NCBI GenBank assembly: GCA_025526995.1
Contig: JAHLKG010000006.1
Coordinates: 744,001-808,000, forward strand
From: Powellomyces hirtus
Taxonomy: Eukaryota; Chytridiomycota; Chytridiomycetes; Spizellomycetales; Powellomycetaceae
Direction of reading: 5' to 3'
DNA length: 64,000 nucleotides
Made by a program: the position numbers and the translations under genes. Positions 1 through 57,524 of this stretch are shown in pieces. Within the stretch, counting starts at the first letter, position 1; the number at the start of each line of letters is the position of its first letter. A model generated the notes under the pieces. That model made no database searches. It worked only from the letters and a program-made list of their open reading frames with translations, and was not told where the DNA came from.

Positions 1-180
1 TCTCCGCCACCTTATGAAAATGATCCTGAACGCAAGCGAAAGCTCCATTTCCTTGAGCACTGCTCTCCGCATTACACGGTCCATCTAGGCGTACACAAGA
101 TGCGCAACCCAAACCATCACGCCAAGAAGTACTACAGCATTACTCCTGAAAGTAAGATCGAGTTCTTCCTGCGTTCATGA
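1..180 (+). CDS. 3' end of an unrecognised protein-coding gene (partial)
   Basis: Frame 1 is open from the window edge to a TGA at 178-180 and gives 59 residues ending KIEFFLRS. It is rich in His, Lys and Tyr and I do not recognise the family. A good splice donor (GTAAGA) lies at 152. Downstream, two frames between 204 and 590 read like protein (one contains the stretch AVVALKATCGFNALARL near 235-285), so the gene may continue through an intron of about 50 nt up to the poly-C tract at 570. No single phase-consistent path was found, so the true 3' end is open. The downstream part could also be a decayed coding relic. The 5' part lies outside the window. Confidence 0.45.
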   Translation, partial: SPPPYENDPERKRKLHFLEHCSPHYTVHLGVHKMRNPNHHAKKYYSITPESKIEFFLRS

Positions 181-1512: not shown

Positions 1513-3178
1513 TCATTTCCTGTTGGGTTCCGATGGGGAGGGGAGGGCAGACACGATATCAGTTGGTGGGGTAGTGGAGGCCGGGGATGAGGACGCCGAG
1601 GCGGAATGGGCCGCCGCAGCCGCCAGACTGTTGTTGTGGACGGCCTCGAGGAGCTGGGCGGGGATATCGAGGATGTGGCCCATGCGCTGGACTTTGGTGA
1701 CGAGGTACTCGTCACGGTCCTGGAGGCGGACGGCGGTGATGGAGGACGTCGACAGCGGGGATGGAGAGTGGGCGCGGGGTGGGGTGGCTGCGCGGCGCGA
1801 GGATGTGCTGGACGGGGCAGCGGGGGTGGATAGTTGATTTGCTGGAGAGGAGGGACGAACGGCCGAGGGTTTAGTGGTTGTGCCGTTGGCAGAGAGGATG
1901 GGCAGTGGCAGCGGGGAGGTCGAAGGTGACGAGGAAGCCGAGAGGGTCAGGTGGTCGATGGCAGCTACGGCGGCGTCATTGCCATCCGCAACACCAGCAA
2001 TTTCAGTGGCAAATTTGCGCCAGCTGGCGGGTATCATGGGCACACGTTCAACGACCTGCACGCCGTCAGATTGCAAATGACGCATCTTGTCCGGGTTGTT
2101 GGTGAGCAGGCGCACACGGTCAACGCCGAGATCGCGCAGCATGGCGGAGGCAATTTCGTAGGACCGGGCGTCTGGCGGGTGGCCAAGGAGGAGGTTGGCG
2201 GCCATGGTGTCGTGTCCGAGATCAATCAGGTTGTATGCTCTATGATAAGACGGCGACGGCAGAGAAAAAAGCGAAGAGGAATAAGAAAGGATCGCATGGG
2301 ATGATGTTGATGACGCTTTGCCTCTTTTTTTTTCCCCGTCAGATGGTCTGTTCCCCCACGGCAGCTTGACTTGACCTTTCGCCCCTAAAGGTCCCACTCC
2401 TCGCCTTCTGGTCTGCTCACCTCAGTTTATCTCTCAGACCGATTCCTCTGCCCTCCTGTTTGAGATACAGCACGACGCCTCGGTTGACTTTTGCCATTAT
2501 ACGCATGGCTTCCTCGAGCTGTTCGGCGCAGTCGCAGCGCAAAGACCGGAGCGTTTCGCCGGTAAAGCAGCACGAGTGTATTCTCACCAACGGCGGTTGC
2601 GGTGTTGACAAGGACAAAGAAGTGGGGTCCTCGTCGTCGTCGTCGTCGTCAGTAGCGTGACCGTTCTGTTGGCTATGGTGGTGGTGGTGGTGTCCGTTCA
2701 CGTGGTGCACTGTTTTCGTTAATGGTTGTGCTGGTGGTGGTGGTGTCGCAGGAGCAGCTACACCCTTGACACCCCTCAACATGCGTTCCCGGTCAGTGTC
2801 TCCCGGCCTGAATTCCTCCAACGAGGCACTCTGAACGTCATCTCCATAGACCAAGGCCAAGTGCTCTTCGTCGTCCCAGGTGTTGGTGTACAAGTGCAGG
2901 TAGCATATTCCGCCAAATTCGGATGGGATGCGGGTGCGGACTTGGCAGCGGACAGACAGAGGGGTGTCGGTTCGGGAGTTCAGGGATGGAGAATGCAGAG
3001 TGGTGTGGTTGTTGTTGTTGTTGCTGCGGTCCGGTTGTTGCTGGAGTGATGGTGGTGGGGTTTGCAATTGTTGGTCGGCGAAAAAGGGCGAGGGGGTGCG
3101 GGCGGTTGTAGAGGGGAGGATGAGAGGCGAGCCTTGCTCTGTCAACTGAGCAAGGAGATGTGGGGCATGTGGAACCAT
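1513..3178 (-). CDS. RIB1: GTP cyclohydrolase II (riboflavin biosynthesis)
   Basis: This enzyme opens GTP to 2,5-diamino-6-ribosylamino-4(3H)-pyrimidinone 5'-phosphate, the first committed step to riboflavin and FAD. Two exons, 3178-2421 and 2239-1513 (intron 2240-2420, phase 2), encode 494 residues. The substrate-binding start [10 protein letters not shown] is at residues 81-90. The zinc ligands are C204, C215 and C217 (motif SLRCDC), followed by [13 protein letters not shown], then [11 protein letters not shown] and [11 protein letters not shown] across the splice. The catalytic fold is complete, but the protein is longer than yeast Rib1 (about 345 residues). There is a Gln/Asn-rich N-terminus, an insert at about 140-195 with six His then six Asp, and a Ser/Pro/Ala-rich C-terminal tail. 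The insert sits between the N-terminal strands and the zinc loop, so it probably loops out. Confidence 0.93.
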
Positions 3179-4065
3179 TTGGAATGAGTAAGTGAGTGAG
3201 TGTGTATAGCAGTGCTAATTGAAAAAAGAAAAAAAAACTATATATATAAAAAGAGCAAGCACAGTGTCAATTCCAGCGGTGGGAGTGGGTGGGTGCTGTC
3301 AAAAGAACGCCTCCGCTTCCTTCCGCGTCTTCTTCAACAATAATAACAATGAGATCCATACAGGACTACGGTAGAATGATGGACCTCTCTTTACTTTACG
3401 CAGGTGGGAACGAAACCTACTTGGCCTCCTGTCCTTTCTTTACTTTAGTCCATCGATAAGAGCGACAGACGGAGGGATGAGTGAGTGACTGACAGCCAGA
3501 TACAGTAGTTGTGAGTCTCTCTCCTCCCTTTCCCATTAGTAAGACCCCGTAGGTACTACATCTAGCATGCATGTGTAAATCAAATCAAACGCTTCTTGTC
3601 TTCCCATCTTATTTCATGCGCTATACCGTGTGCTTTTCGAACGACACCCCGTCCTGCAATGCCCATGAAGAGCATCTCACACTCAGTGAAGAAATCCCGG
3701 AAAGGCTCCTTCAGCTTGAATGATATTTAGTAGACGGAGAATTTGACTGGTGTTTCCATTGCTCGTTGCAAAACACATCTTTGATAGCTTGTAGTTTGTA
3801 CATCTCTCGGTGGTATGATATGCCCCTCATTTAGTGAACAACCAGATCGCAATAATCGTCGCCTGCGCTTCCTGTCACGTGACTCGATACCAACAAGGCT
3901 GACATAAGCGGCCTCCACGCTGACCACTGGGACTACCATCTGCGGTTCACACTTTCCATTGCCATTGCACCTTGAATCGCTTGAGCAGATTGTAATAACC
4001 TGTTCAACTCTTCTCGACTTTCAAGCCCTCAAGCGAGATAGCCACAGCTCACCATACAACTCGTC
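3179..4065. other. Divergent promoter region between RIB1 and the OS-9 gene
   Basis: The 887 bp hold no supported gene. Next to RIB1 there is an A/T-rich block with TATATATA at about 3240. Short CT-rich and GAGTGAGT-like runs occur at 3180-3500. The right half is the likely promoter and 5' UTR of the OS-9 homologue. Confidence 0.5.
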
Positions 4066-6125
4066 ATGCGACCCCCATCGCTAGCGCTGCTTTTCGCGGC
4101 CCTCGTAGCCACATCATTAACCACAACCCACGCCATCACCACCGTCAACCCCTACACCGACCTCTTCGCCAACCCACAACACAACATCGTCTTCACAAAA
4201 CGGCTATCCACTCCCGAACAGGTGCAGGCAGTTAACAGCACGGGCGAAACCATCTCCATGAAAACAGCGTCAGGGCAGCAATTCTTGTGTCTGATGCCCA
4301 AAGTTGAGCAAAAGGACACGCGGGCCCTCCAGGAACAACAACGCGCATTGCAAAATGTCGACCCGGAACAACGCCTTAGTGTCGCCCGCCAGACCGCGGA
4401 AGATGCCTTAGCGACATCCAAGTTTGTCAGTTGCTTGTTGTTTGGGGCCGGGTACTGGACGTATGAGTTCTGTCCGCATTCCCATATTCGACAATTCCAC
4501 GTCATGTCCGAGCAAGAAGCTGCGTCGCTGACTGCGGCGCAGAAACTGGAGGCGCAGAACCAGAATTACTTTATCGGAAGGCATCAGCCGGACAATGAAG
4601 CGGACCCGGAGGATGGAGCATTGGTGGTGGTGCAGCAGGGCAATGCGGCCTACGTGAGGCAAAAGTGGGCGGGCGGGACAAAGTGTGATTTGAAGAAAGG
4701 TGCACCCAGAAGTGTCGAGATTCAGGTATGTTTCTCCTCCCCCAGACGGCATAATTCGCATATCGAGCCATATCACTCACTCTCATATCACCCCGCCAGT
4801 TTTACTGCAACCCCCAAGCAATCCAAGACCAAATCCTCCAAATCCAAGAAACATCCACCTGCAAATACCTCGTTGTGATCCACACCTCCCGACTCTGCCA
4901 CGACCCCGTCTTTGCCCCTTACTCCACCGACGGATCCACCAACGTCCGCTCAGTGCAATGCCACCCAATCGCTATCTCCTCGACCGCAACCAACAACCTC
5001 AAAACGGAACTCGACATTGACACCACCCTCGCCATGGCCGCGGAAGCTAATGGCGTGCCCGCCATGTCCCTCGGCACGATATTGAAATGGAAACGACAAC
5101 TCGATCAGCAGAACTTGCAGTTGCAGCACGGACCTGCCAAGCCTCAGGTGGCTGCCGCCGGCAAGCCATCCACATTGAAATCCTCAACTCTCGCATATTC
5201 CTCGGGCAACAAAAAGAAATACCCGACAAGAATCGATTTGGACGACGTGGTCATCAAAGGCCCCGACGACGGGACCTGGAACGACATCTTCCGCGACGCC
5301 GTCGCAGGCCTTAAAGAATGGTTGGCCGAAGGCGACCTGGACGACAACGGCAACGGTCTGCCCAATGGCGTTGACCCGAAAGCCGACCAGGAAGCCGTCC
5401 AGGCAAAGCTGAAAGATACATTCAACCGCGTTTACAACCAGGTCGCGGATCTCTTGGCGGACGGCGACCGCCAACAAACAGAAGCGGAAGAGCATGCCCC
5501 CCCGCCGCCGCCAAAACGACCGGCGCACGATAAATCAACCAAACCACAACCGGTCGCCGATACCCCCAAACCCGCCCAAAAACACCTCGCGGCGCACGAA
5601 AAAGTGTTCCGAACAACCGACAAGAATCAACCGGACCGCGAAAGCAAAGTCAGCTACGGCTCCGATCACAACGACCAACACGACAATGAAGTTGACGACG
5701 ACGACGACAACGACTTTCTCGCAGAATCCAACGCTGACTTTGCCAACAAAATCGCCGACCTGTTCAGCTCCATGCTGGAAACCATTGACGTAGACGAACT
5801 TCTCGCCGCCGACGACACCACCACCCCCGACCGCCCCGTCAGCAAAACGGACGAAAACGCTAAACAACCAATGAAGGGCGTCAAATGGACCATGCACCCA
5901 GACAAGGAGCATGACGAGGCCAACAGCAAGAAACCGCCATCGAAGAAAGCACCCTCAGTAGCAATGTGGAAGTTTGTCGATGGGAGAGCTGAAATCGTTG
6001 TCAATGGCAAACGACCGCCGGCGGACGATGCCCAGGAGAAGTCGGCCACCAGTAAGAAGAAGAAGAAAGATGCCGCGGCTGCAAAAGAAGCCGAGCGGAA
6101 ACATATTGTTGTGGGAAGACTGTAG
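4066..6125 (+). CDS. YOS9: OS-9/Yos9 homologue, ER lectin of ER-associated degradation
   Basis: OS-9/Yos9 proteins read trimmed N-glycans on misfolded proteins in the ER lumen and pass them to the Hrd1 ubiquitin ligase. Exons 4066-4725 and 4800-6125 (phase 0) give 661 residues, close to human OS-9. Residues 1-23 are a signal peptide ending THA. The MRH lectin domain spans about 120-275. It has the WxY motif (W131, Y133 in GYWTYEFC), Q143 (IRQFH), R215 (PRSVEIQ), and E237 and Y243 in QETSTCKY just after the intron, so all four sugar-contact types are present. The C-terminal half is charged and probably disordered, with Asp-rich and Lys-rich runs and a short hydrophobic segment IADLFSSML. It ends HIVVGRL, with no HDEL-type retrieval signal, unlike budding yeast Yos9. 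ER retention would then need a partner such as Hrd3. Confidence 0.92.
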
Positions 6126-46174: not shown

Positions 46175-46841
46175 ATGCACTTCAAAGCCCTTCCCATTGT
46201 CCTTAGCGTGTTCGCATCTCTGGCCGCGGCTGCTCCAGCCCCCTTGGCGGATGAGGTCGCTTTCGAGGCTTGCCCCAACAAGCCCACCGGGTTCCTGACC
46301 CTCACCGGCGCCGAAATTGTGCCCCTCCCCGTCGTGGCTGGTCAGAATGTCACCATTTCCCTCCAGGTAAGGCTCGAAGTCTCGGCTTCGACGCCGCAAG
46401 GATGAGCTGCGCGACGATGATCTGACCCAGAATCTCATATCCCCTTCCCAATTTGCTTCTAATAGGGCACCACCGACCGCGACATTGTCCAAGGTGCCAA
46501 GGCTGTTGTCAAGGTCGGCCTTATTCCCGGGTTCCCTTTGTACACGTTCGACCTCGACATCTGCGAGCAAGCCCCCAAGCAAGGTCTGGCATGCCCCATT
46601 GCGCCCGGAGCCCAGAGCATCTCTGCTACGCGCGAGGTGCCCGCTGTCCCTGCAGGAACATACAGTGTCACCATCGACGCTACCAACGGAGACGGTGAAG
46701 CGTAAGCGTTTAATATTTGCACCTGTGTGTTGTTAGGCTGGGTTACTCCGTCCCTTTGAGACTGACATCTGTTTTCCCCACTCCCTTGCTTCTCTTAGTA
46801 TCACCTGCGTTCAGGGTTCCCTTCCCGTCGCCAGAGCCTAA
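46175..46841 (+). CDS. ML-domain (NPC2-like) secreted lipid-transfer protein
   Basis: ML proteins are small beta-sandwich carriers of sterols or phosphatidylglycerol/inositol; the fungal form is the PG/PI transfer protein of vacuole or secretory pathway. Exons 46175-46366, 46466-46701 and 46799-46841 give 156 residues. It has a signal peptide (MHFKALPIVLSVFASLAAAA). Cys occur in FEACPNK, LDICEQ, LACPIAPG and AITCVQG, enough for the family disulfides. Other ML features are VKVGLIPGFPLYTFDLDIC and VPAGTYSVTIDATNGDGE. The length matches the family. Confidence 0.88.
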
Positions 46842-47580: not shown

Positions 47581-50500
47581 ATGGCTAGAATACTGGTTTT
47601 TCTTTTTCTGATAGGAGCGGCTGGAGCCGCAAGGCATCTGAATGGCAAAGAGGTATAGAAACGTATGACATTGTAATCGGGAGCAGGAATCTCATCCAAG
47701 TTCCCACACAGAACAATGCCGCACATCCTGACTGGGGTTCTTACGGCGAGACTCTTGGTCGAGCTCACGGGCCTGCGAGATACGTGGACGGTGTCTCACA
47801 ACCCATCGGCACTGGCAATTCTTCATTTCCAAGCGCACGCTTTGTGTCCAACGTTGTCATGGGGAGCAAAGGAAGTGATATTCCAAACACAGAGCGGATA
47901 TCACACATGTTAGCGTTCTGGGGCCAGTTCATGGCTCATGTACGTAGTCCGCGGTGTTCTATGGACATGGGATGACGTTTGAAGGCGGCAATTCAAACCC
48001 CAGCTTACCGTCTGCGGACATTTAAATGTGTAGGACATGATTCATGTGGAAAACAATGCCTCGGAACGGTTCGATATACCGGTACGGAGGATGTCATGTA
48101 GCATGTCACTGGCTGAGTTTCGATGCTCAAGTTTTCTGATACAGATACCTGCGGGTGATCCGGTGTATGATCCAGGGGCTTCCGGTCAAGTCACAATGAA
48201 GTTCACCCGAATTAAGCACGCCATCGATCCCATCACAAATGAGCGCCAATTTCACAACCACCAAACGGGATGGATCGATGCTTCGCAAGTCTACGGCGCG
48301 GAGGAAGATCGTCTTGTAATGTTGAGAACCTTCTCCGGTGGTCTGATGCGGACGTACAAGAACAATCTCTTGCCGTTGCGGCCAGAGAACACTCCCGACA
48401 TAATGTTGGGTTTGAAGCCCCGCACGTTTCTTTCGGGGTAACACGTTGTACGATTCCGTGCTTTGCCCTCAACACCCATGTTAACTGACTTACCTATGTT
48501 TCATTTATCACTTCAGCGACTTACGTGCCAATGAGGTAATGCTCAAGAGCGCCAGTCTCGCATCTCATGTCACTTCCTAAAGCTTTGAGGCTTTTGTAGA
48601 ATCCCGCGCTTCTATCCATTCAAACATTGTTTTTACGAGAGCACAACCGCAGAGCAGCGCACTACGCGAAGCTGCATCCTAATGCCACCGATGAAGATCT
48701 ATTTCAAATGACGAGGATGTGGGTTATAGCGTGCGTACAGAAGATTACGTACACGGAGGTATCCTATCGAGTAGCCTACACGAGCGCAGATCTTTGCTGA
48801 TTTTGGTGCGTTAGTACCTGCCGCGACTACTAGGGCAGCAACTGCCACCATACAAAGGCTATAATGCATCCGTTGACCCAGGTGATAAAAGCGTCAAGTT
48901 GCCGTTTTTCCTGGCTTCCTGACGTCTGATGTCCTTTGTCTCTCCAGCAATCGACGTGCTGTTCATCGCGGCCTCGTTCCGCTACGGGCACAGCGCAATC
49001 AGTTCGATCATCCCCCGTCTCGATGACAAATGGGCGCCGCATCCAAAAGGCCATCTAATCCTTCGAGATGCTATCACAAATCCCACCTCCGTGCTGGAGG
49101 ATGGGATTGAACCGATCTTACGAGGTCTGGTCACACAGGTATGTGGTCATAGCCAGGCGTACTCCTGCTTACTGTGCTCATGTCCATGTCTTGGTGGTCT
49201 CAAGCTGGAGCAATCGTCGGATGTGGTTTTGGTGGATGATCTCAGAAATTTTATGCCGGGGCCTCCATTTGGGCTGAGCCCACAGTTATTCTTTGATCTG
49301 GCAGCCTTCAATATCCAAAGAGGCCGGTACGTTTCAGGGTGCAATCTTTTGGCACTATGATTTGCTTATTTGTGCATTGCGCAGTGACTTTGGTCTTCCC
49401 AGTTACAACGAATGCAGAAAAAGTTTTGGAATTCCCAAAGTATATGCGTAAGTGGCAGTGACGCTGAACGTATTACAATGTATCTGCCTGGTCATTAAAG
49501 CCGCTGCCTTTCCTCCGCGACAACAGTTTTGCTGACATCACCTCCGATGAAACGCTTCAAAAAGCATTATTTGATGGATATAATGGAAATATTGAGGATA
49601 TTGAGCCGTACGTGGGGGGACTAGCCGAAGACGTAAGCAATGGGCTGCTCGGGCCCCTTTTCAAAGCTTCAATCACAGATCAGTTTACACGTTTGCGTGG
49701 TGAGACACTATTCTCAATATCGTACAGCACTGGTGCCTTCGACTGCTGACATTGATCTGACTTACAGACGGAGATGCTTACTGGTACGAGATCCCGGGTG
49801 TTCTCAACACCCGTGACTTTGAAGATCTTGGCAACGTGTCGCTTTCACAAATCATACTCTGGAACACGAACATTGTCGCTTTTCCAGAGAGCTCTTTCAC
49901 GTATGGATTGGCGGGCTTCGTAGTTGAATCGCAGAGTTTCATCATTTTGCACTAATTTTGATCGTTTTTTGTTACGTGAAGTTACGCAGATGCGAGTCAA
50001 GTTGACAAGTTACGGGGCGTATCCTCTTCAACTTCAGGGGGCACCACCTCAATTCAGGGCTCCATACCTCAAATTGTTCAGTTGACCACGGGACTACTCC
50101 TGCAGTATCACATTGACGTCGAATCCAGTACGGTGGAGTTTGTGCTGGCGTCCAACTATAGTGGCTGGTACGTGGATACACCATGTCATTTGGCAGTGAG
50201 TATTTTGTAAACCCTCATGACTTTCTTCACATGATACAGGTTCGCTTTCGGTCTCGGTAACAGCATGGCGGGCGCAGACATCTACGCTGTATATGAGGAT
50301 GGTGATGGAACTTGGACCGTTCATGATTTGCACGCAACAGCGCAAGCGCAGGTCGGTGGCGCTTGACATCTTGATGGATTCCCACAGAATCACTGATGCA
50401 TGCCCTGCACAGCCTCCCACCGATGTCAGTCAGGGTTGCACGAATGATATAACCGACGTCACAGACGTTTCTGAAGCCTGGTATTCCACGCGTGCCTTCT

Positions 50501-53447
50501 CCTTCAGCAGGAAGTTAAATACGGGAGATGCGTGTGATCGAGAAATCAGCGCATCAAGTGCCACGCTCCCTATTATCTTCGCGTATTCAACCGATGCGGT
50601 TAATCTGGCGTATCACGGAAGCAAGCGATTTCAGTCAACTCTCAACTTTTACTCTGGTGTCGGCTCCAGCGGGACTTCGGGTGTCAGTATCGTTACATCG
50701 TCGTCAAAGAGTCTTACGCTTTACTTCCTTGTGTATGTCCTTTTCAGTCCTTTGACATTGATTTTGCGGCGGTTGTGTCGCTTCCTAACGTCATCTCAAA
50801 ACTAAGCAGTTCTGATCACTCAATTTTCTGAATAGGTGGCATGCGGTGGATATGATGTTCTTGCTTTTCTTCATCATTCCAATCGGAATATACGTTGCAC
50901 GATATGGTAAAAGAGTGGATCTCTGGCTCTTCTGGCATAAGCTCTGCATGGTAAGCTCCTTAGTTCCATCGATGACGCATGATTTGCTACCAACGGTGTT
51001 GTGCACTTCCAGGGTGTTGCTATCGGAGAATTCGCGTTCACAGTGCGATATACGATAATGGAATTTGAGCACTTCAAATCCCAAATTCAAGCGTATGATC
51101 ATATCAAACTAGGGATAGCAACAGCCACGTTTGGGTTGGTGATTGGATCCGCCGGATATCTGGCACAAATGGACTGGAAAGTGCTAGCGAGATATTCTCA
51201 AGGGTTGAGGCTATTTCACAAGATTGGATCCTATACCCTATATTTCGCAGGTATGGTTGTATGGTTATACGGGGCTTGGTTCACCTCTTTTTTAGGAACT
51301 ACTGTCGCTGACCTCCATCTCATGCTCAAAGCCATTTTTAATGGCTGGTTAGGGGTTCAAGATTTGGGTAAGCAAGAGGTTTAAATCATTTGACAAATTT
51401 CTTCACTATTGCTCATCACCTCGGTACAGCTGCGCGTTACGGGTCAACAAGCAAAGTTTGGCCGATGTTGTATATGCTATACTTTGCCGTGCTCGCCATT
51501 ATTCTACTCGGTGTGAACTCCCTCAACGTATATCTGGCAAAGTTTGTCCAGCGCTTAGTTGCTGTGCTCACGAAAAGTTGGTTGGGGAAATGGATGGACA
51601 AAAACTACAATGATGATCCCGCGGCGGTCGTTCAATTGACAGAAAGTGTGCAGGTGAAAGTGCCTGGCCAAGAGATGACTTTGGAAGCCTTTGAGAACAG
51701 CTGCGTAGATGGGCGCTCATGGACCATCGTTGGCGGGTACGTGCTTGTCATCACCATCGGCTAACACTTACCCGCGTTTGCTTAGTTCTGTTATATTCTT
51801 ACTTTCAGATTGATCGTTGACTTGAGTGGATACATGGATCAGCACCCAGGTGGTCGGCGCCTACTCGAAGATTATGTTGGGATGGATGCCACGAGCGCAT
51901 TTATGGGTCACTTGAAGAATGGTCACAGACACAGTCGATTTGTAAGTTAACTATATACGTGCTTTTGAAACTGAATGAAATCTGATCATCTGTGTAATTT
52001 GTCACACAAGGCTATGAACAAGCTTAGCACCTTTGTCATTGCATCGCTGCCCAAGGCAGAAGTGAGCGATGTGGGAAGATCCATCTTAAGCTTGACATCG
52101 CAGCGGCCCCGTAGACGAAGTGTCACCTCGGGCATAGCCCGGGAACCTTTTAAAGATTTGAGTTTCAACGAGAGTGGGCTCAGGACCCGTCGAGGATCTA
52201 AGCAAGCGGGCGGCCTTAAGATTATAGCTACGTCGCAGATGACACCGCTTCCGCCTACGTCACCGTTATTGACACAGGCGAGCGAGAAGAAAGGCCAATC
52301 GACAAAAAGCGTATTGCAGCCTCCATCGGTGTTTGTGAGCTCGATCATCTCTTCCACGGAACCGTCACAACTAGATAGAGCTACTTTGGTTGAGAAAACA
52401 ACCGTCACCGCTTTTCATGCCGCGAGACCTGTTAGAAGGTTCCGATTTCGGTTCCCAGAAGCTACACCAGTTGATATTGAGCCTGGCGATGGAGTGACTC
52501 TCCGGTATGGTACTGGACAGTCTGCATCATTAACTTTGATTTTGACTAACTCCCTCACGCCTACAGACTTGAAGATCAATCTGGAACTACACATGTTCGC
52601 GAATACACGCCGATCCAGTGCTCTGTTAACGATTGCATTGATTTGTACATCAAGGTTAGTCTCACTTTGGGAACACTATTGGTGCCATTCAGAAACAGCT
52701 CCAACATCTCTTGCAGATATATCCAGCAGGGCGTGTTACAGCACCTTTGGATGAGCTTGTCATTGGTGACACGGTGGAGATGAGCACGCCCCGATCGCAT
52801 GTGTCATTGACCAATCCTAATTCCGAAGACGGCTGTTATCCAAACGTGGTCATGATTGCAGCTGGCACAGGTATGGCTTTCCACCTCTATGCGGAGTGAC
52901 AACCTCACACCTAACCGGTCGCTCTTGTTCAGGGATTACGCCAATGCTCCAGATGCTAACATTTTACGTGGAAAATTGTACTCGCCGAACGCAAGGCTCG
53001 GGTCCCCGCTCGACCCAAGCTTCACGAGCCCCATTGGCGTCCAACATGCGGCTGATGTGGGCCAACCGATCAGAAGAAGAGATGTTTTTGGCTGCAGAGT
53101 TGCGCTCCATGGAGTTGTCGTGCGGTGGTTCTCTGCGGATATCTCACATACTCTCAACACCCACCCCGACATGGACGGGTCCAACGGGGCGAGTAACACA
53201 GCAGCAAGTCAAAGATATGCTCCCAGACGATTTACGGTTGTTGCTTCGCGAACCACCCGTGGCCCCACCAGGACAAGACGAGGATCTTGAAGGAGGAGGA
53301 GGCTCGTTAGGAATCACCGGGGCGATGCTCACCTATGATTGGGACACCATCTCGATTCTGATTTGTGGGCCGCCCGGGTTCAACACCACTGTTGTGGACA
53401 TCTTGAACGGGCTTTCCATACCCGACAGAATTGTAAATGTACTCTGA
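47581..53447 (+). CDS. Multidomain haem peroxidase - DOMON - cytochrome b561 - cytochrome b5 - FAD/NAD(P)H reductase
   Basis: Twenty-three exons in unbroken phase give 1448 residues (47581-47652, 47712-47939, 48034-48081, 48145-48437, 48517-48535, 48600-48758, 48815-48881, 48948-49138, 49205-49326, 49385-49447, 49527-49699, 49768-49900, 49982-50167, 50240-50351, 50413-50732, 50836-50950, 51013-51367, 51430-51736, 51809-51941, 52011-52504, 52567-52654, 52717-52870, 52933-53447). After a signal peptide comes an animal-type peroxidase (about 25-520): distal H100 (FWGQFMAH), R233 (LFLREHNR), proximal H310 (FRYGHS), RGRDFGLPSYN. DOMON (about 535-710) has axial candidates M594 and H690. Cytochrome b561 (about 730-985) has H731, H763, H797 and H836. 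Cytochrome b5 (about 960-1040) has H1000 (HPGG) and H1029. The reductase (about 1155-1448) has REYTP (FAD), AAGTGITPML and CGPPGF (NAD(P)H). Topology implies peroxidase and DOMON outside, flavin inside. The likely role is passing cytosolic electrons outward to feed peroxide chemistry; the substrate is unknown. Confidence 0.88.
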
Positions 53448-53634: not shown

Positions 53635-54976
53635 ATGGTAAGTCTGCTTGGACCTTCGCAAAATACATTTGTCGTCGGGTCCATGACCAGCATCTGCCCA
53701 GACTTCAGCTCAACTGCCGTCCACCCAGCACCAATCGCCAGCCGCGCCCTGGCAAAAAGTTGGCGTATTTTGGGACTATGAGGTAGACCATGCAAATGCC
53801 TCCCGTCACTGGCTTGACTTACAGTTTGGTAACGATCCAGAACTGTGATATACCAAGGTTGGCGAGATGCTGGCTATGTAATTCCAGTGATTAACGTGTC
53901 TGGAACTCTTCGAATGTGTTGTCCCTAGTGACATGTCGGGGCCAGCGGTGGTGAACAAACTACGGATAGTATTGAGACATCTGGGACAGATTGTACTATT
54001 CAAGGTAACCAGAGTTGTTGACTTAAGTCAGCGTCCGGGGTGGCTAGACTTTCTGACCACCCTATGATTGGCAGTCATATGTAAGATTATCTAGCAGCAC
54101 TCCGTCGACCGAAGAGGGTCTCAAGATGCAGAGCGAGCTCAGTTTGTCGGGTGTTTCGCTGATGCTGTGTCCACCGCGGGGAAAGAAGATGACAGGTATG
54201 AATACCAAACACTGAACGGAAGCCGACCATCCACTGACTTTTGGCGTCATGTCGCAGCCGATCCCATCATCATCGCTGACATGATGGCTTTCGCCCTCGA
54301 CAACCCAGCACCAGCTGTCATCGTTCTCATTTCTGGCAACGGCGATTTTTCATACGCGCTCTCTCTTCTGAATGGGCGACAATACACAATCCTGGTCGTG
54401 ATCAAAGACAACGCCCCAGATGTCCTGCAGTCAGCCGCGACGGCAGTGCTGGACTGGAGACTGGATGTTCTAACCTTGGCATCCTCTTCGCGAGTTGCAC
54501 CGCCTACTTGCTGTCCAAATCACAGCCCAAAAGCGATGCCCGCGAAATGGACAACGTCTGAAACACCTGGACAGCACCTCTTTGAGTACCCAGATACCGC
54601 TCACGTAACGGGCCCTTTATTTGCAGATGACGAGCGTCATCCCTATATTTTAGGCGTTAGCTCGAGCAGGAGGGACTTACCGTCAAATTCAGGGACCTTA
54701 TCGCCCCTCCTGGCCAAAACGAGTGGAATTTCGGCACCATCGTTCAATGGCTACTACAAAGACCTGGTCGCCGTTCTGCGTGCCCTCATTAGTGAAGGAC
54801 AGCCTCGACCCTTGCGGAGCACTGTCGGCCTTAAATTGCTGCAAGGGGACCCAAAAATCTACAGCCGGGCAACTGGACCCTCAAGCTTCAAAGAGTATGT
54901 CAAAGCAGCTCAGGATAAAGGGCTCGTCGAGCTGGGTGGTGAGGGAGGGAACGACTGGATTTCTTTGACGCCCTGA
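53635..54976 (+). CDS. NYN-domain nuclease-like protein with C-terminal LOTUS (OST-HTH) domain
   Basis: NYN domains are PIN-like RNase folds; LOTUS domains bind RNA or helicases, as in animal MARF1. Exons 53635-53637, 53702-53782, 53841-53857, 53929-54004, 54075-54195 and 54258-54976 give 338 residues. The model puts the first intron directly after the ATG and uses a 17-nt exon; both are supported by phase and by conserved motifs on each side. The NYN part (about 20-155) has GVFWDYENC, DMSGPAVVNKLR, LSGVSLMLCPPRG, IIADMMAFALDNPAPAV and SGNGDFSYALSLL, keeping the acidic residues. LOTUS is at about 258-336 (VLRALISEGQPRPLRSTVG, SFKEYVKAA, DWISL). It is paralogous to the loci at 55458 and 60312. 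Confidence 0.85.
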
Positions 54977-55457: not shown

Positions 55458-57524
55458 TCATATCTTCTCAGGTGCACTGCAGGTCTCATCCACGATTTTG
55501 ACTCGTGCATCAAGGCAGTCGTCAAAATCGAAAATGACATCTTTCTCCTCCCAGCGGAGTGACGCCTTGCACATGGAAAAGGTCGCATTCGATGGCTCAT
55601 CCATGAGCGGCACTTCAGCCACCGTCAGGGGTTCATCAACCAGCATTTCCACATCTTTGCATGGACCTGAAGCGACCTGCACGTCTGTTATCTCCACCGT
55701 CGCATTAGATTGTATGGCGGGAGCTAGAATAAGCAGGACGTGAGCTGTCCTCGGCGCACCATGACTTAGTAGCTCCGATTATATACCTGAGGTTGCAGTC
55801 ACTTCTGTCTCCTCATTTGCTGGCCGTGATGATGTTGTGGGCAGTGTGTCCACTGCATTCATTGCGTATGTCACCGGCTCCAAACCTACATTCACCTGGC
55901 AATATTCTTTGCTCGTTCCTGAGCTGATTGCATCGTTTTTGCACGAGGTTTCAGTAACACAACCAACTTTGTCATCGGAAGGCGCATCAGAATGTGCCGG
56001 CATGAATTCGGCAGACGATTCAACCAGCGAACTGTCCTCCGTCCACGAGTTAGGTTGTGAGTTGCAGCTGCACTCGTTTAGATGCTCACAATGCTCATCC
56101 TGAACTGTCACAGCGGCATCATAGTCTGCATTGCGAGAACTGTGTGGCGAGTCCTCAGTCTTGTGTGCTCGGTTGTAGCTTGATGCAGCTTTCACGTCGT
56201 ATTCGTCTGGCCGATCCACCGTTGTTTGGACCTGCATATTGCTCAGCTCTGACTTGATGAGAGTGTGAAGGCAATCCACCTCCGTTTTCACAGCTGTGGT
56301 CTGGGGCGTCGATGGCTCAGGCAAATGTACATCTAACGTTGCGCCGACCACCGAGTCCCCTGATTGTGCTGTGTCCCGATTCGCTGTCGGCAGGCTCAAC
56401 TCGACACTTGTCCGCACGAGCTCTTCATTTACTGTCAAAGTGACCTCATGTTCGATATGTGATTGTTCCTGTACTTTTTTCCCGGGAATTCCCCAAGACC
56501 TCGGCGGGACATGTGGGCTGTCAAGCCTGTTTTCCGTCGCTCCACCGCCGGTTTGCGATGCTTCCTTCTTGAGCGACGTTTTGCCAGCACATGACGCAAT
56601 GAAATCCAATTCTGACTTGACAATCGTTTTTCTCAAGTTGACCGGCGATTGAATCCTGGTTGGTGAGTTCTTGTCCGACAGCCCTTGCTGACCTTTCATA
56701 CCAACCATCTGATCTCTGACGGGAAATGTGCCCATCATAGGTGCAGCGTTTGCACCCTCCCCTTGGAACCCTTTGCGCGGATCCAGAATGTCCTGTCGCC
56801 AAGCCAGCACATGCGTGGCCCCAGTGCGCAAGACGACCGGTGCGGATACATTGTTCACGACCACCAGAATGGTGTATTGACGAGCGTTCAAGAGAGATAG
56901 CGCATATGAAAAATCCGCGTCTCCCGAAATCATAACGACAACAGCCGGTGCCGTGTTGCAGATCGCAAAGGCCATCAAGTCTGCCACAATCATTGAATCC
57001 GCTACAAGTGAAGTATTGGTGTGGCATCGATGTAAATACCCGGCCCTTGACAGAAAAGCGTGGATCGCGTACCAGTTTCCTTTCTACCTCTGGGCGGACA
57101 CAGGGTAAGAGAGACCCCAGAGAGATTTAAGTCATTTTGCAACTGTAACGAGACCTCCGTGAGGGCTATGCCCGACTTCTCCAGGTACGCCTACATGTAG
57201 CTCATAAATACGGGAATGAGGGGCAACACTGGCCCACCGCAGTGAGTACCTTGAACATGACAATCTCACCAAAACACCGGAGAGAGTTTCGTATTCTACT
57301 CACTAGGTCTGAACCGGACATTCCCCTGAAGATGCACGCGACATTAGAAAGCAATGCGCACCCGTCAACGAACGAAGACTCAAACCTGGGAGGGCAGCAG
57401 TTCTGCAGCCATTTTGTCAGTGAACGAATGACCAATGTGTGAGGTTTGAGCCACACGCAGATAGCAAAGGTGTCGATACCTCATAGTCCCAGAAGATGCC
57501 CACTTTGCGCTGACATGATGGCAT
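55458..57524 (-). CDS. NYN-domain protein with long acidic disordered tail
   Basis: Exons 57524-57480, 57402-57386, 57325-57250, 57190-57088, 57001-55787 and 55723-55458 give 573 residues. The NYN domain fills the first 155 residues: VGIFWDYENC, MSGSDLVSRIRNSLRCFGE, SGVSLTLCPPR, MIVADLMAFAICNTAPAV, SGDADFSYALSLL, with all acidic positions present. Exon sizes and phases match the NYN-LOTUS gene exon for exon (including the 17-nt exon), so the pair arose by duplication and inversion. The tail (about 160-573) is Ser/Thr/Asp/Glu-rich with no LOTUS domain. A short hydrophobic/acidic stretch, KDVIFDFDDCLDARVKIVDE, lies near the end. The sixth exon depends on one phase-1 splice; without it the protein stops at residue about 488. 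Confidence 0.8.

Follow-up and report, generated by a model that had tools for sequence, protein, structure and literature searches.

To our knowledge, the dual oxidases (DUOX) represent the one well-known design in which an animal-type peroxidase is united with a membrane electron chain. In these proteins the peroxidase is N-terminal, the flavin-driven haem chain crosses the membrane on a ferric-reductase core of the NOX type with its NAD(P)H side inside, and EF-hands are present. Cytochrome b5 reductase 4 and nitrate reductase combine an FAD/NAD module with a b5 domain. The CYBDOM proteins (HYP1, CRR and SDR2/FRRS1) possess a DOMON domain with Met/His ligands followed by a cytochrome b561 with four histidines. 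Within this group the plant protein HYP1 moves electrons across the plasma membrane, with ascorbate as donor and metals being reduced, according to the accessible part of the report (PMC10784544). In the accessible literature, DOMON-b561 proteins are described as passing electrons to ferricyanide and to ferric and cupric compounds. Regarding the peroxidases, the accessible part of PMC4932444 describes the distal pocket of lactoperoxidase (LPO) as lined by Gln105, His109, Arg255 and Glu258.

The window analysed here is the whole stretch of 64,000 nucleotides from Powellomyces hirtus (contig JAHLKG010000006.1), and the features of the gene are given in Table 1. An earlier note on this DNA had read the locus as 23 exons encoding 1448 residues. 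Resplicing agreed that these join in phase, but the exact model was wrong, with one in-frame intron within helix 4 of b561 having been kept as coding and adding 27 residues to that helix. As this insert is missing from the NCBI protein P0001 (heme peroxidase, Powellomyces hirtus) and from its relatives P0002 and P0003, the gene was assigned 24 exons and 23 introns. The corrected splice is letter-for-letter identical to P0001, with introns of 56-103 nt of which all 23 are of the GT-AG type. Dynamic-programming splicing over-predicted introns; a hand-curated model was used and then corrected from P0001. An alternative intron at 49440..49500 was rejected; P0001 has 49448..49526.

Table 1. Features of the fused peroxidase gene (positions within the window)
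Feature	Position	Strand	Details	Basis
Whole gene	47581..53447	+	24 exons, 1421 aa, one reading frame	Spliced; identical to P0001
Hydrophobic N-terminus, signal-peptide-like	47581..47640	+	Residues 1-20	Hydropathy, window 2-20
Animal-type haem peroxidase domain	47632..49880	+	Residues 18-516, exons 1-12	PF03098 (An_peroxidase) 1.3e-136
Distal helix	47925..47939	+	Q96, A99, H100; align with LPO Gln105, Asp108, His109	Alignment
Distal Arg and Glu (GDLRANE)	48524..48535	+	R217, E220; align with LPO Arg255, Glu258	Alignment
Proximal His	48989..48991	+	H310; aligns with LPO His351	Alignment
DOMON cytochrome domain	50094..50616	+	M594 (50265), H690 (50614), likely haem ligands	PF03351 6.4e-15
Cytochrome b561 core and helix 5	50713..51533	+	H731 (50840), H763 (50936), H797 (51100), H836 (51217)	Family profile
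Intron overlooked in the earlier note	51251..51331	+	81 nt, in frame, inside b561 helix 4	Comparison with P0001
Cytochrome b5 domain	51681..52025	+	HPGG H973 (51843), H1002 (51930)	PF00173 3.9e-11
NADH-cytochrome b5 reductase-type FAD/NAD module	52425..53444	+	REYTP 52598, GTG 52864, CGPP 53364	PF00970, PF00175

A Pfam domain search was run on the 1448-residue translation with a threshold of E<=1. It placed An_peroxidase, DOMON, Cyt-b5, FAD_binding_6 and NAD_binding_1 in this sequence, which agrees with the modules claimed in the earlier note. The complete order, in a single intact gene on the + strand, is a signal-peptide-like start, peroxidase, DOMON, b561, b5 and an FNR module of the NADH-b5-reductase kind. 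It could be argued that the locus yields two products, a peroxidase and a CYBDOM-b5-FNR protein, which come from two genes or have been joined by an annotation artefact. Retention of intron 12 (49901..49981) would bring in a stop at 49955 that ends the peroxidase, so a peroxidase-only product is possible, and the relative P0121 was modelled without a peroxidase. Against this, the identical order is found in many lineages, in three more loci of the same genome and in P0025, a TRINITY transcript ORF of EukProt which aligns over 99% of the 1448-residue query. A split into two genes between 49900 and 50413, the outcome named beforehand as contrary to a single gene, is not borne out: at least ten proteins among the matches listed, P0025 included and P0001 not counted, span 86-100% of that query. 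In addition, the peroxidase half and the reductase half split the chytrid proteins into matching sub-clades, the reductase tree having weak deep branches. Separate products are considered highly improbable, and at the level of sequence the fusion of a peroxidase to a membrane chain in one gene is real.

The peroxidase domain matched the PDB chains 8s6c, LPO and DUOX1. The PF03098 domain, the proximal His and the distal Gln, His and Arg used to judge family membership are all present. While distal H100 and proximal H310, both named in the earlier note, were recovered in the splice and in the alignment, the distal arginine had been wrongly placed at R233, which sits in LREHNR (48636-48638); it is R217 that aligns with LPO Arg255. 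The distal Gln/His/Arg/Glu and the proximal His are shared with lactoperoxidase, myeloperoxidase and peroxinectin A, which differ from this protein in having Asp beside the distal His (Ala, A99, here) and in lacking a fused membrane chain. In LPO, Asp108 and Glu258 are the haem-ester acids, a mark of the mammalian branch; only the Glu (E220) is kept here.

For the membrane chain, the proposed ligands M594/H690, the four b561 histidines and both b5 histidines were all found in the splice. A single-sequence PDB search with the DOMON domain gave one chance match only. The protein did not match the Pfam b561 model (PF03188) at E<=1, and b561 was assigned from a family profile built with 21 members, whose best PDB matches are cytochrome b reductase 1 (5zle, 2.4e-8) and a plant ascorbate ferrireductase (4o6y, 4.3e-6), and from the match of 19 of these 21 members to PF03188 at the same threshold (best 3.4e-11). 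As regards ascorbate as a possible cytosolic donor, basic residues are present near helix 4, with no clear alignment by eye to the HYP1 K/R positions, which were taken as named in the accessible part of the literature. The FAD and NAD(P)H modules were confirmed by FAD_binding_6 (PF00970, 5.7e-11) and NAD_binding_1 (PF00175, 4.1e-14); both motifs are present and the best PDB matches are NADH-cytochrome b5 reductases. Cytochrome b5 reductase 4 and nitrate reductase are among these matches and have the same module type, but here it is membrane-bound, below a b561-DOMON-peroxidase stack. The acidic E of ANRSEEEM in the reductase aligns with the D of ANQTEKDI in CYB5R3, a position which we take to select NADH.

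The resemblance to DUOX suggested in the earlier note, with a membrane core other than NOX, is borne out. The N-terminal animal-type peroxidase, the flavin-driven haem chain through the membrane and the inside NAD(P)H side are alike, whereas b561, DOMON and b5 stand in place of the NOX core and the reductase is of the NADH-cytochrome b5 reductase type. No Ferric_reduct (PF01794), FAD_binding_8 (PF08022) or EF-hand family was detected in the protein by Pfam at E<=1. NAD_binding_6 (PF08030), scoring 20.3 bits, stays below its cut-off of 22.2; it passes in relatives P0003 and P0016, over the NAD region shared with NAD_binding_1. The protein is DUOX-like in layout and is not a DUOX. Unlike DUOX, the chytrid-type fusion is found in zoosporic fungi and algae, where the DUOX design is repeated on an unrelated membrane core.

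This shared layout, the intact distal His, Arg and Glu of this member and the DUOX1 peroxidase domains among the PDB matches would also fit a DUOX-like source of H2O2, in which the chain would reduce O2 outside to superoxide/H2O2 and the peroxidase would spend this peroxide on oxidising wall tyrosines, halides or other extracellular targets. Such a function is considered unlikely, given that the NOX core is absent, that DOMON and b561 bind each of their haems through two protein residues, such haems not being known O2 reducers, and that the genome already has NOX/ferric-reductase-type membrane domains at about eight places (10 matched stretches). Three of the four paralogues also lack the distal His and Arg.

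Of the 120 database matches listed, 30 join a peroxidase to DOMON-b561. Twenty-five of these 30 also carry b5, usually with FNR, and belong to chytrids, Blastocladiomycota, a green alga, a brown alga and unnamed protists. By Pfam, a peroxidase, b5 and an FAD or NAD domain are combined in 21 of the 120 matches listed, P0001 included, so the domain order is not as unknown as had been supposed. No description of peroxidase-DOMON-b561-b5-FNR proteins was found in the literature searched, and the chain is never mentioned in the source names among the matches ('heme peroxidase', 'peroxidase', 'Peroxidase mlt-7', 'DOMON domain-containing protein', 'hypothetical' and 'unnamed'). Searching with the reductase half gave 4 proteins and a six-row alignment 6, most known members being missed, so that these numbers are not a measure of frequency; the metagenome protein P0123 (ABC/b561) was set aside from the reductase-half matches.

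Ligands were counted over the 30 fused proteins, leaving out P0122 and the fragment P0121. The chain ligands are nearly invariant: DOMON Met in 30/30 and His in 29/30, the b561 histidines in 30/30, 30/30, 30/30 and 29/30, and, over the 25 long forms, the first b5 His in 25/25 and the second in 22/25. The proximal peroxidase His is present in all 30. At the distal His position, 19 proteins have His, seven a different residue and four a gap; at the distal Arg position, 23 have Arg, six a different residue and one a gap; the distal Glu is substituted in many fused proteins that retain His and Arg, and P0024 has lost the distal His independently.

A tree of 27 of the 30 fused peroxidase domains (P0019, P0029 and P0088 were left out of the peroxidase trees as incomplete) placed them in one group with support of 100/98, apart from the sampled bacterial and invertebrate domains. 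The 29 unfused rows were picked by hand among matches similar to this protein, the tree being built without DUOX or mammalian peroxidase, and the labels are our own: 'bacterial' (19, several of them unnamed metagenome proteins) and 'animal' (8, with P0071 unnamed). The b5-FNR tail is missing in five of the 30 fused proteins, which indicates that the NADH supply is not constant. On another tree, using every second of 71 unfused rows (36), its presence required two changes, and it must have been gained or lost more than once.

With regard to topology, the hydrophobic start and the loops predicted to be inside, which have more K+R in 25/25 long forms, fit the outward electron flow suggested in the earlier note. 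The peroxidase domain probably faces outside. It is suspected, with about even confidence, that the protein exports electrons at the expense of NADH, with an extracellular peroxidase haem as the last station, and so works as a self-reducing peroxidase. At the cell surface or in a secretory vesicle, electrons would pass from cytosolic NADH to FAD, cytochrome b5, the two b561 haems, the DOMON haem and finally the peroxidase haem, where they would reduce oxidised peroxidase intermediates and provide an NADH-paid H2O2 sink, or alternatively let the haem react with O2. By family the other haems have two protein ligands. The peroxidase haem has one and sits below an intact distal pocket, which makes it the only obvious site of H2O2/O2 turnover. 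The gene, its modules and their order, the ligand residues with their conservation, and the relatedness of the fused proteins are seen in the sequences; we infer the use of NADH over NADPH, the bound cofactors, the outward flow, the role of the peroxidase haem as acceptor and what it does there. H2O2, O2 or a metal could be its final partner.

Since plant DOMON-b561 uses ascorbate and reduces metals, as far as the accessible report describes, the peroxidase could be a neighbour of the chain and not its acceptor. In a rival reading the chain would reduce extracellular Fe(III)/Cu(II), with the peroxidase as an accessory head guarding against Fenton chemistry of Fe(II) and H2O2. The reduction of ferric and cupric substrates by HYP1 (PMC10784544, accessible part) and the gene C1 of the same genome, which encodes DOMON-b561-b5-FNR without a peroxidase, are in line with this. 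As general differences from the present protein, HYP1 draws its electrons from ascorbate, and the CYBDOMs have neither b5-FNR tail nor peroxidase head, as far as the accessible sources go. What speaks against an accessory head is its retention in both fungi and algae; in 24 of 25 pairs compared it also shows higher conservation than the reductase half, the reductase stretch including loose linkers. Metal reduction with an accessory head is regarded as improbable, to the same degree as the DUOX-like source of H2O2.

The genome contains four fused peroxidase genes, this one and three at further loci with the same module order. The three sister genes have lost the distal His and Arg and belong to a chytrid sub-clade that lacks both residues, retains the proximal His and the chain ligands and, in most members, has gained a His at the position just before the lost one (WGxxxHxD). 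Peroxide chemistry is thus no constant feature of the fusion, and the sister genes probably use the same chain for a different purpose, for example to reduce O2 or metals. Returning to the self-reducing peroxidase, a wider reading is put forward tentatively, and with less confidence than the exporter itself: the wiring of a peroxidase to a transmembrane flavin chain would have been invented a second time, independently, with NADH electrons going straight to the extracellular peroxidase haem, which would consume H2O2 at a cost to the cell or activate O2 without added peroxide, accompanied by an old chytrid duplicate line with this changed haem site. Direct feeding of a peroxidase haem by a membrane chain is hereby made a testable question, for which the sub-clade without the peroxide-cleaving residues but with the chain ligands offers a natural control. 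Judging by the C1 gene, such a chain seems to be of use even where no peroxidase is attached. It should also be noted that DOMON-b561 pieces (C18, a candidate), the C1 gene and the full fusion occur together in this single genome; with C1 and C18 present, it seems that an existing electron exporter has received the peroxidase as its extracellular head.

The fusion gene of the window encodes a peroxidase domain joined to DOMON, b561, b5 and an FAD/NAD reductase module (FNR). A hand reading of the locus reproduced the earlier model of 23 exons and 1448 residues with no inner stop, although that model had missed one intron. Compared with the NCBI copy of the protein, P0001 (1421 residues, annotated as 'heme peroxidase', Powellomyces hirtus), the 1448-residue translation differed solely by an extra 27-residue stretch within b561 helix 4, which is encoded by an 81-nt in-frame intron and is likewise absent from the relatives P0002 and P0003. 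With this intron removed, the 24-exon translation equals P0001 letter for letter, and all 23 introns of the corrected gene have GT-AG borders. This identity assigns the window to P. hirtus (Chytridiomycota, Spizellomycetales) or to an organism with the same form of this protein. It should also be noted that retention of intron 12 would leave a secreted peroxidase with a short tail and no membrane chain.

The module order put forward in the earlier note was recovered with Pfam as An_peroxidase, DOMON, Cyt-b5, FAD_binding_6 and NAD_binding_1. The fusion protein by itself gave no Pfam b561 match at E<=1. When a profile of the b561 segment from 21 family members was compared with the PDB, cytochrome b reductase 1 (Dcytb) and a plant ascorbate ferrireductase scored best, and PF03188 was recognised at E<=1 in 19 of these members. 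In an alignment to lactoperoxidase (LPO), Q96, H100, R217, E220 and H310 correspond to Gln105, His109, Arg255, Glu258 and His351, with LPO residue numbers counted by us from the sequence alignment. In the LPO structure, Gln105, His109, Arg255 and Glu258 surround the distal pocket, and His351 adjoins the haem (PMC4932444). R233, previously proposed as the distal arginine, is another, conserved arginine, the counterpart of Arg255 being R217. The position of LPO Asp108, one of the two acids making haem esters, is occupied by A99. The remaining proposed ligands are present, namely DOMON M594/H690, the four b561 histidines (H731/H763/H797/H836) and b5 H973/H1002. Residues 1–20 are hydrophobic, and a simple hydropathy scan of this member picks out three of the five helices that homology predicts. 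In all 25 long forms, i.e., fused proteins continuing into b5, K+R content was higher in the loops assigned inside than in those assigned outside, and these assignments would therefore place the peroxidase and DOMON outside and b5 and FNR inside.

The proposed electron route would run from NADH through FAD, b5, the inner and outer b561 haems to the DOMON haem. The closest relatives of the reductase module are NADH-cytochrome b5 reductases, and b5-FNR would substitute for, or supplement, ascorbate as electron supply. The peroxidase haem is taken as the putative working end of the chain because, of all the haems, it alone should offer an open coordination site; its reduction by DOMON is a proposal. 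The plant DOMON-b561 protein HYP1 is reported to take electrons from ascorbate and pass them through the plasma membrane to ferricyanide and to ferric and cupric compounds; in its model the outer b561 haem and the DOMON haem lie 20.9 angstrom apart (PMC10784544). The layout of the fusion family is like that of the dual oxidases (DUOX), whereas its core resembles that of the DOMON-b561 (CYBDOM) proteins; DUOX are characterized by a NOX core and EF-hands (PMC9524095, PMC9421330 and PMC3591440). DOMON-bearing ferric reductases (PMC3591440) and a sponge NOX with b561 helices (PMC9524095) are kindred ideas with cores unlike that of the fusion family. No description of a peroxidase-DOMON-b561 fusion was found in literature titles and abstracts, a coverage comprising few subscription journals and not the 2007 survey of DOMON domains by Iyer and co-workers. 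The family is thus undescribed as far as the literature was searched.

This redox fusion family is real and conserved. A protein search scored 8000 sequences, with 853 above threshold and 120 listed. Among the matches listed, alignment showed PF03098 joined to at least DOMON-b561 in 30, of which 25 run on into b5 (23 with an FAD motif) and five go no further than b561. Judged only from Pfam annotation, 21 of the 120 listed carry peroxidase, b5 and an FAD or NAD domain, 18 of them also DOMON. The named sources of the fused proteins are chytrids, Sorochytrium (Blastocladiomycota), the green alga Cymbomonas and the brown alga Discosporangium, alongside EukProt and metagenome entries; a later search added P0122 (Phlyctochytrium). 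A peroxidase-domain tree separated 27 fused rows from 29 unfused rows chosen by hand (by our labels, 19 bacterial, 8 animal and 2 other), the dividing branch having 100/98 support; this favours a single origin of the peroxidase-DOMON-b561 join within the sampled rows. On a separate tree, the b5-FNR tail requires at least two changes. Five other proteins (P0004, P0005, P0009, P0010 and P0012) have a tandem pair of animal-type peroxidase domains and a T9SS sorting tail, P0005 being from Saprospiraceae.

Across the 30 fused proteins the chain ligands are near-constant and the distal pocket is variable. In both trees, a branch with 100/100 support unites Polychytrium, Obelidium, Entophlyctis and two Geranomyces rows, all of which lack the distal His and Arg. 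WGxxxHxD, with the His one residue ahead of its usual position, occurs in four of these five rows (not Polychytrium) and in P0088 (Nowakowskiella), and the proximal His is present in every member lacking the distal pair. Since the reductase-half tree also clusters these five rows, with P0029 and P0088 (93/88), both halves were probably passed down together. The peroxidase/reductase identity ratio was 0.99–1.42 in this sub-clade (10 pairs) versus 1.32–1.77 in the other group (15 pairs); peroxidase identity near or above that of the reductase indicates that the sub-clade's head is not freely decaying.

Within the genome, PF03098 matched five loci. The full module order was found at the window and on contigs C5, C9 and C16, the last three assembled from tblastn pieces rather than a spliced model; all three have lost the distal His and Arg and retain the proximal His. 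The fifth, an unfused locus on C21, was read by us as a candidate alpha-dioxygenase or linoleate diol synthase. The C1 frame has a hydrophobic start (by eye) and an SH3 domain (PF00018, 2.9e-8) set inside its NAD region, which hints at protein-controlled electron export; its b561, FAD and SH3 scores were above Pfam cut-offs and those for DOMON, b5 and NAD below. The C18 locus is a candidate plain CYBDOM. A lone NAD-module fragment on C2 is probably a decayed partial copy, and no other modules were found in the 9.5 kb read around it. The ferric-reductase/NOX membrane domain gave 10 matching stretches in about eight places.

Coordinates of the fusion gene, its neighbours in the window and related loci in the genome (G000)
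Feature	Location	Strand	Content
Fusion gene	window 47581..53447	plus	peroxidase-DOMON-b561-b5-FNR
Intron missed earlier	window 51251..51331	plus	fourth b561 helix
Intron 12	window 49901..49981	plus	stop at 49955 if retained
ML-domain gene	window 46175..46841	plus	PF02221
NYN ORF	window 54095..54976	plus	PF01936
NYN ORF	window 55779..57083	minus	PF01936
C5 fusion	L012		distal helix WGLFMHSD, fits WGxxxHxD
C9 fusion	L009		distal helix WGLYLHID, fits WGxxxHxD
C16 fusion	L010		distal helix WGSVVHSD, fits WGxxxHxD
C1 frame	L035:817-3756	minus	980-codon single frame; DOMON, b561, b5, FAD/NAD reductase; no peroxidase
C18 locus	L036 about 3107-4460		DOMON and b561 pieces, both below Pfam cut-offs; no other modules found
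C5 b561 match	G000:C5:483129-483419 (L038)		29.5 bits; 280-codon frame
C2 fragment	G000:C2:1702576-1702989		C-terminal NAD module; 42-44% identity to window protein; in-frame stop

Another cytochrome b561 match lies on C5. Directly upstream of the fusion gene is a secreted-looking gene with a lipid-binding ML domain, and just downstream are two opposed ORFs with NYN domains, which are alike by eye and perhaps represent an inverted duplicate.
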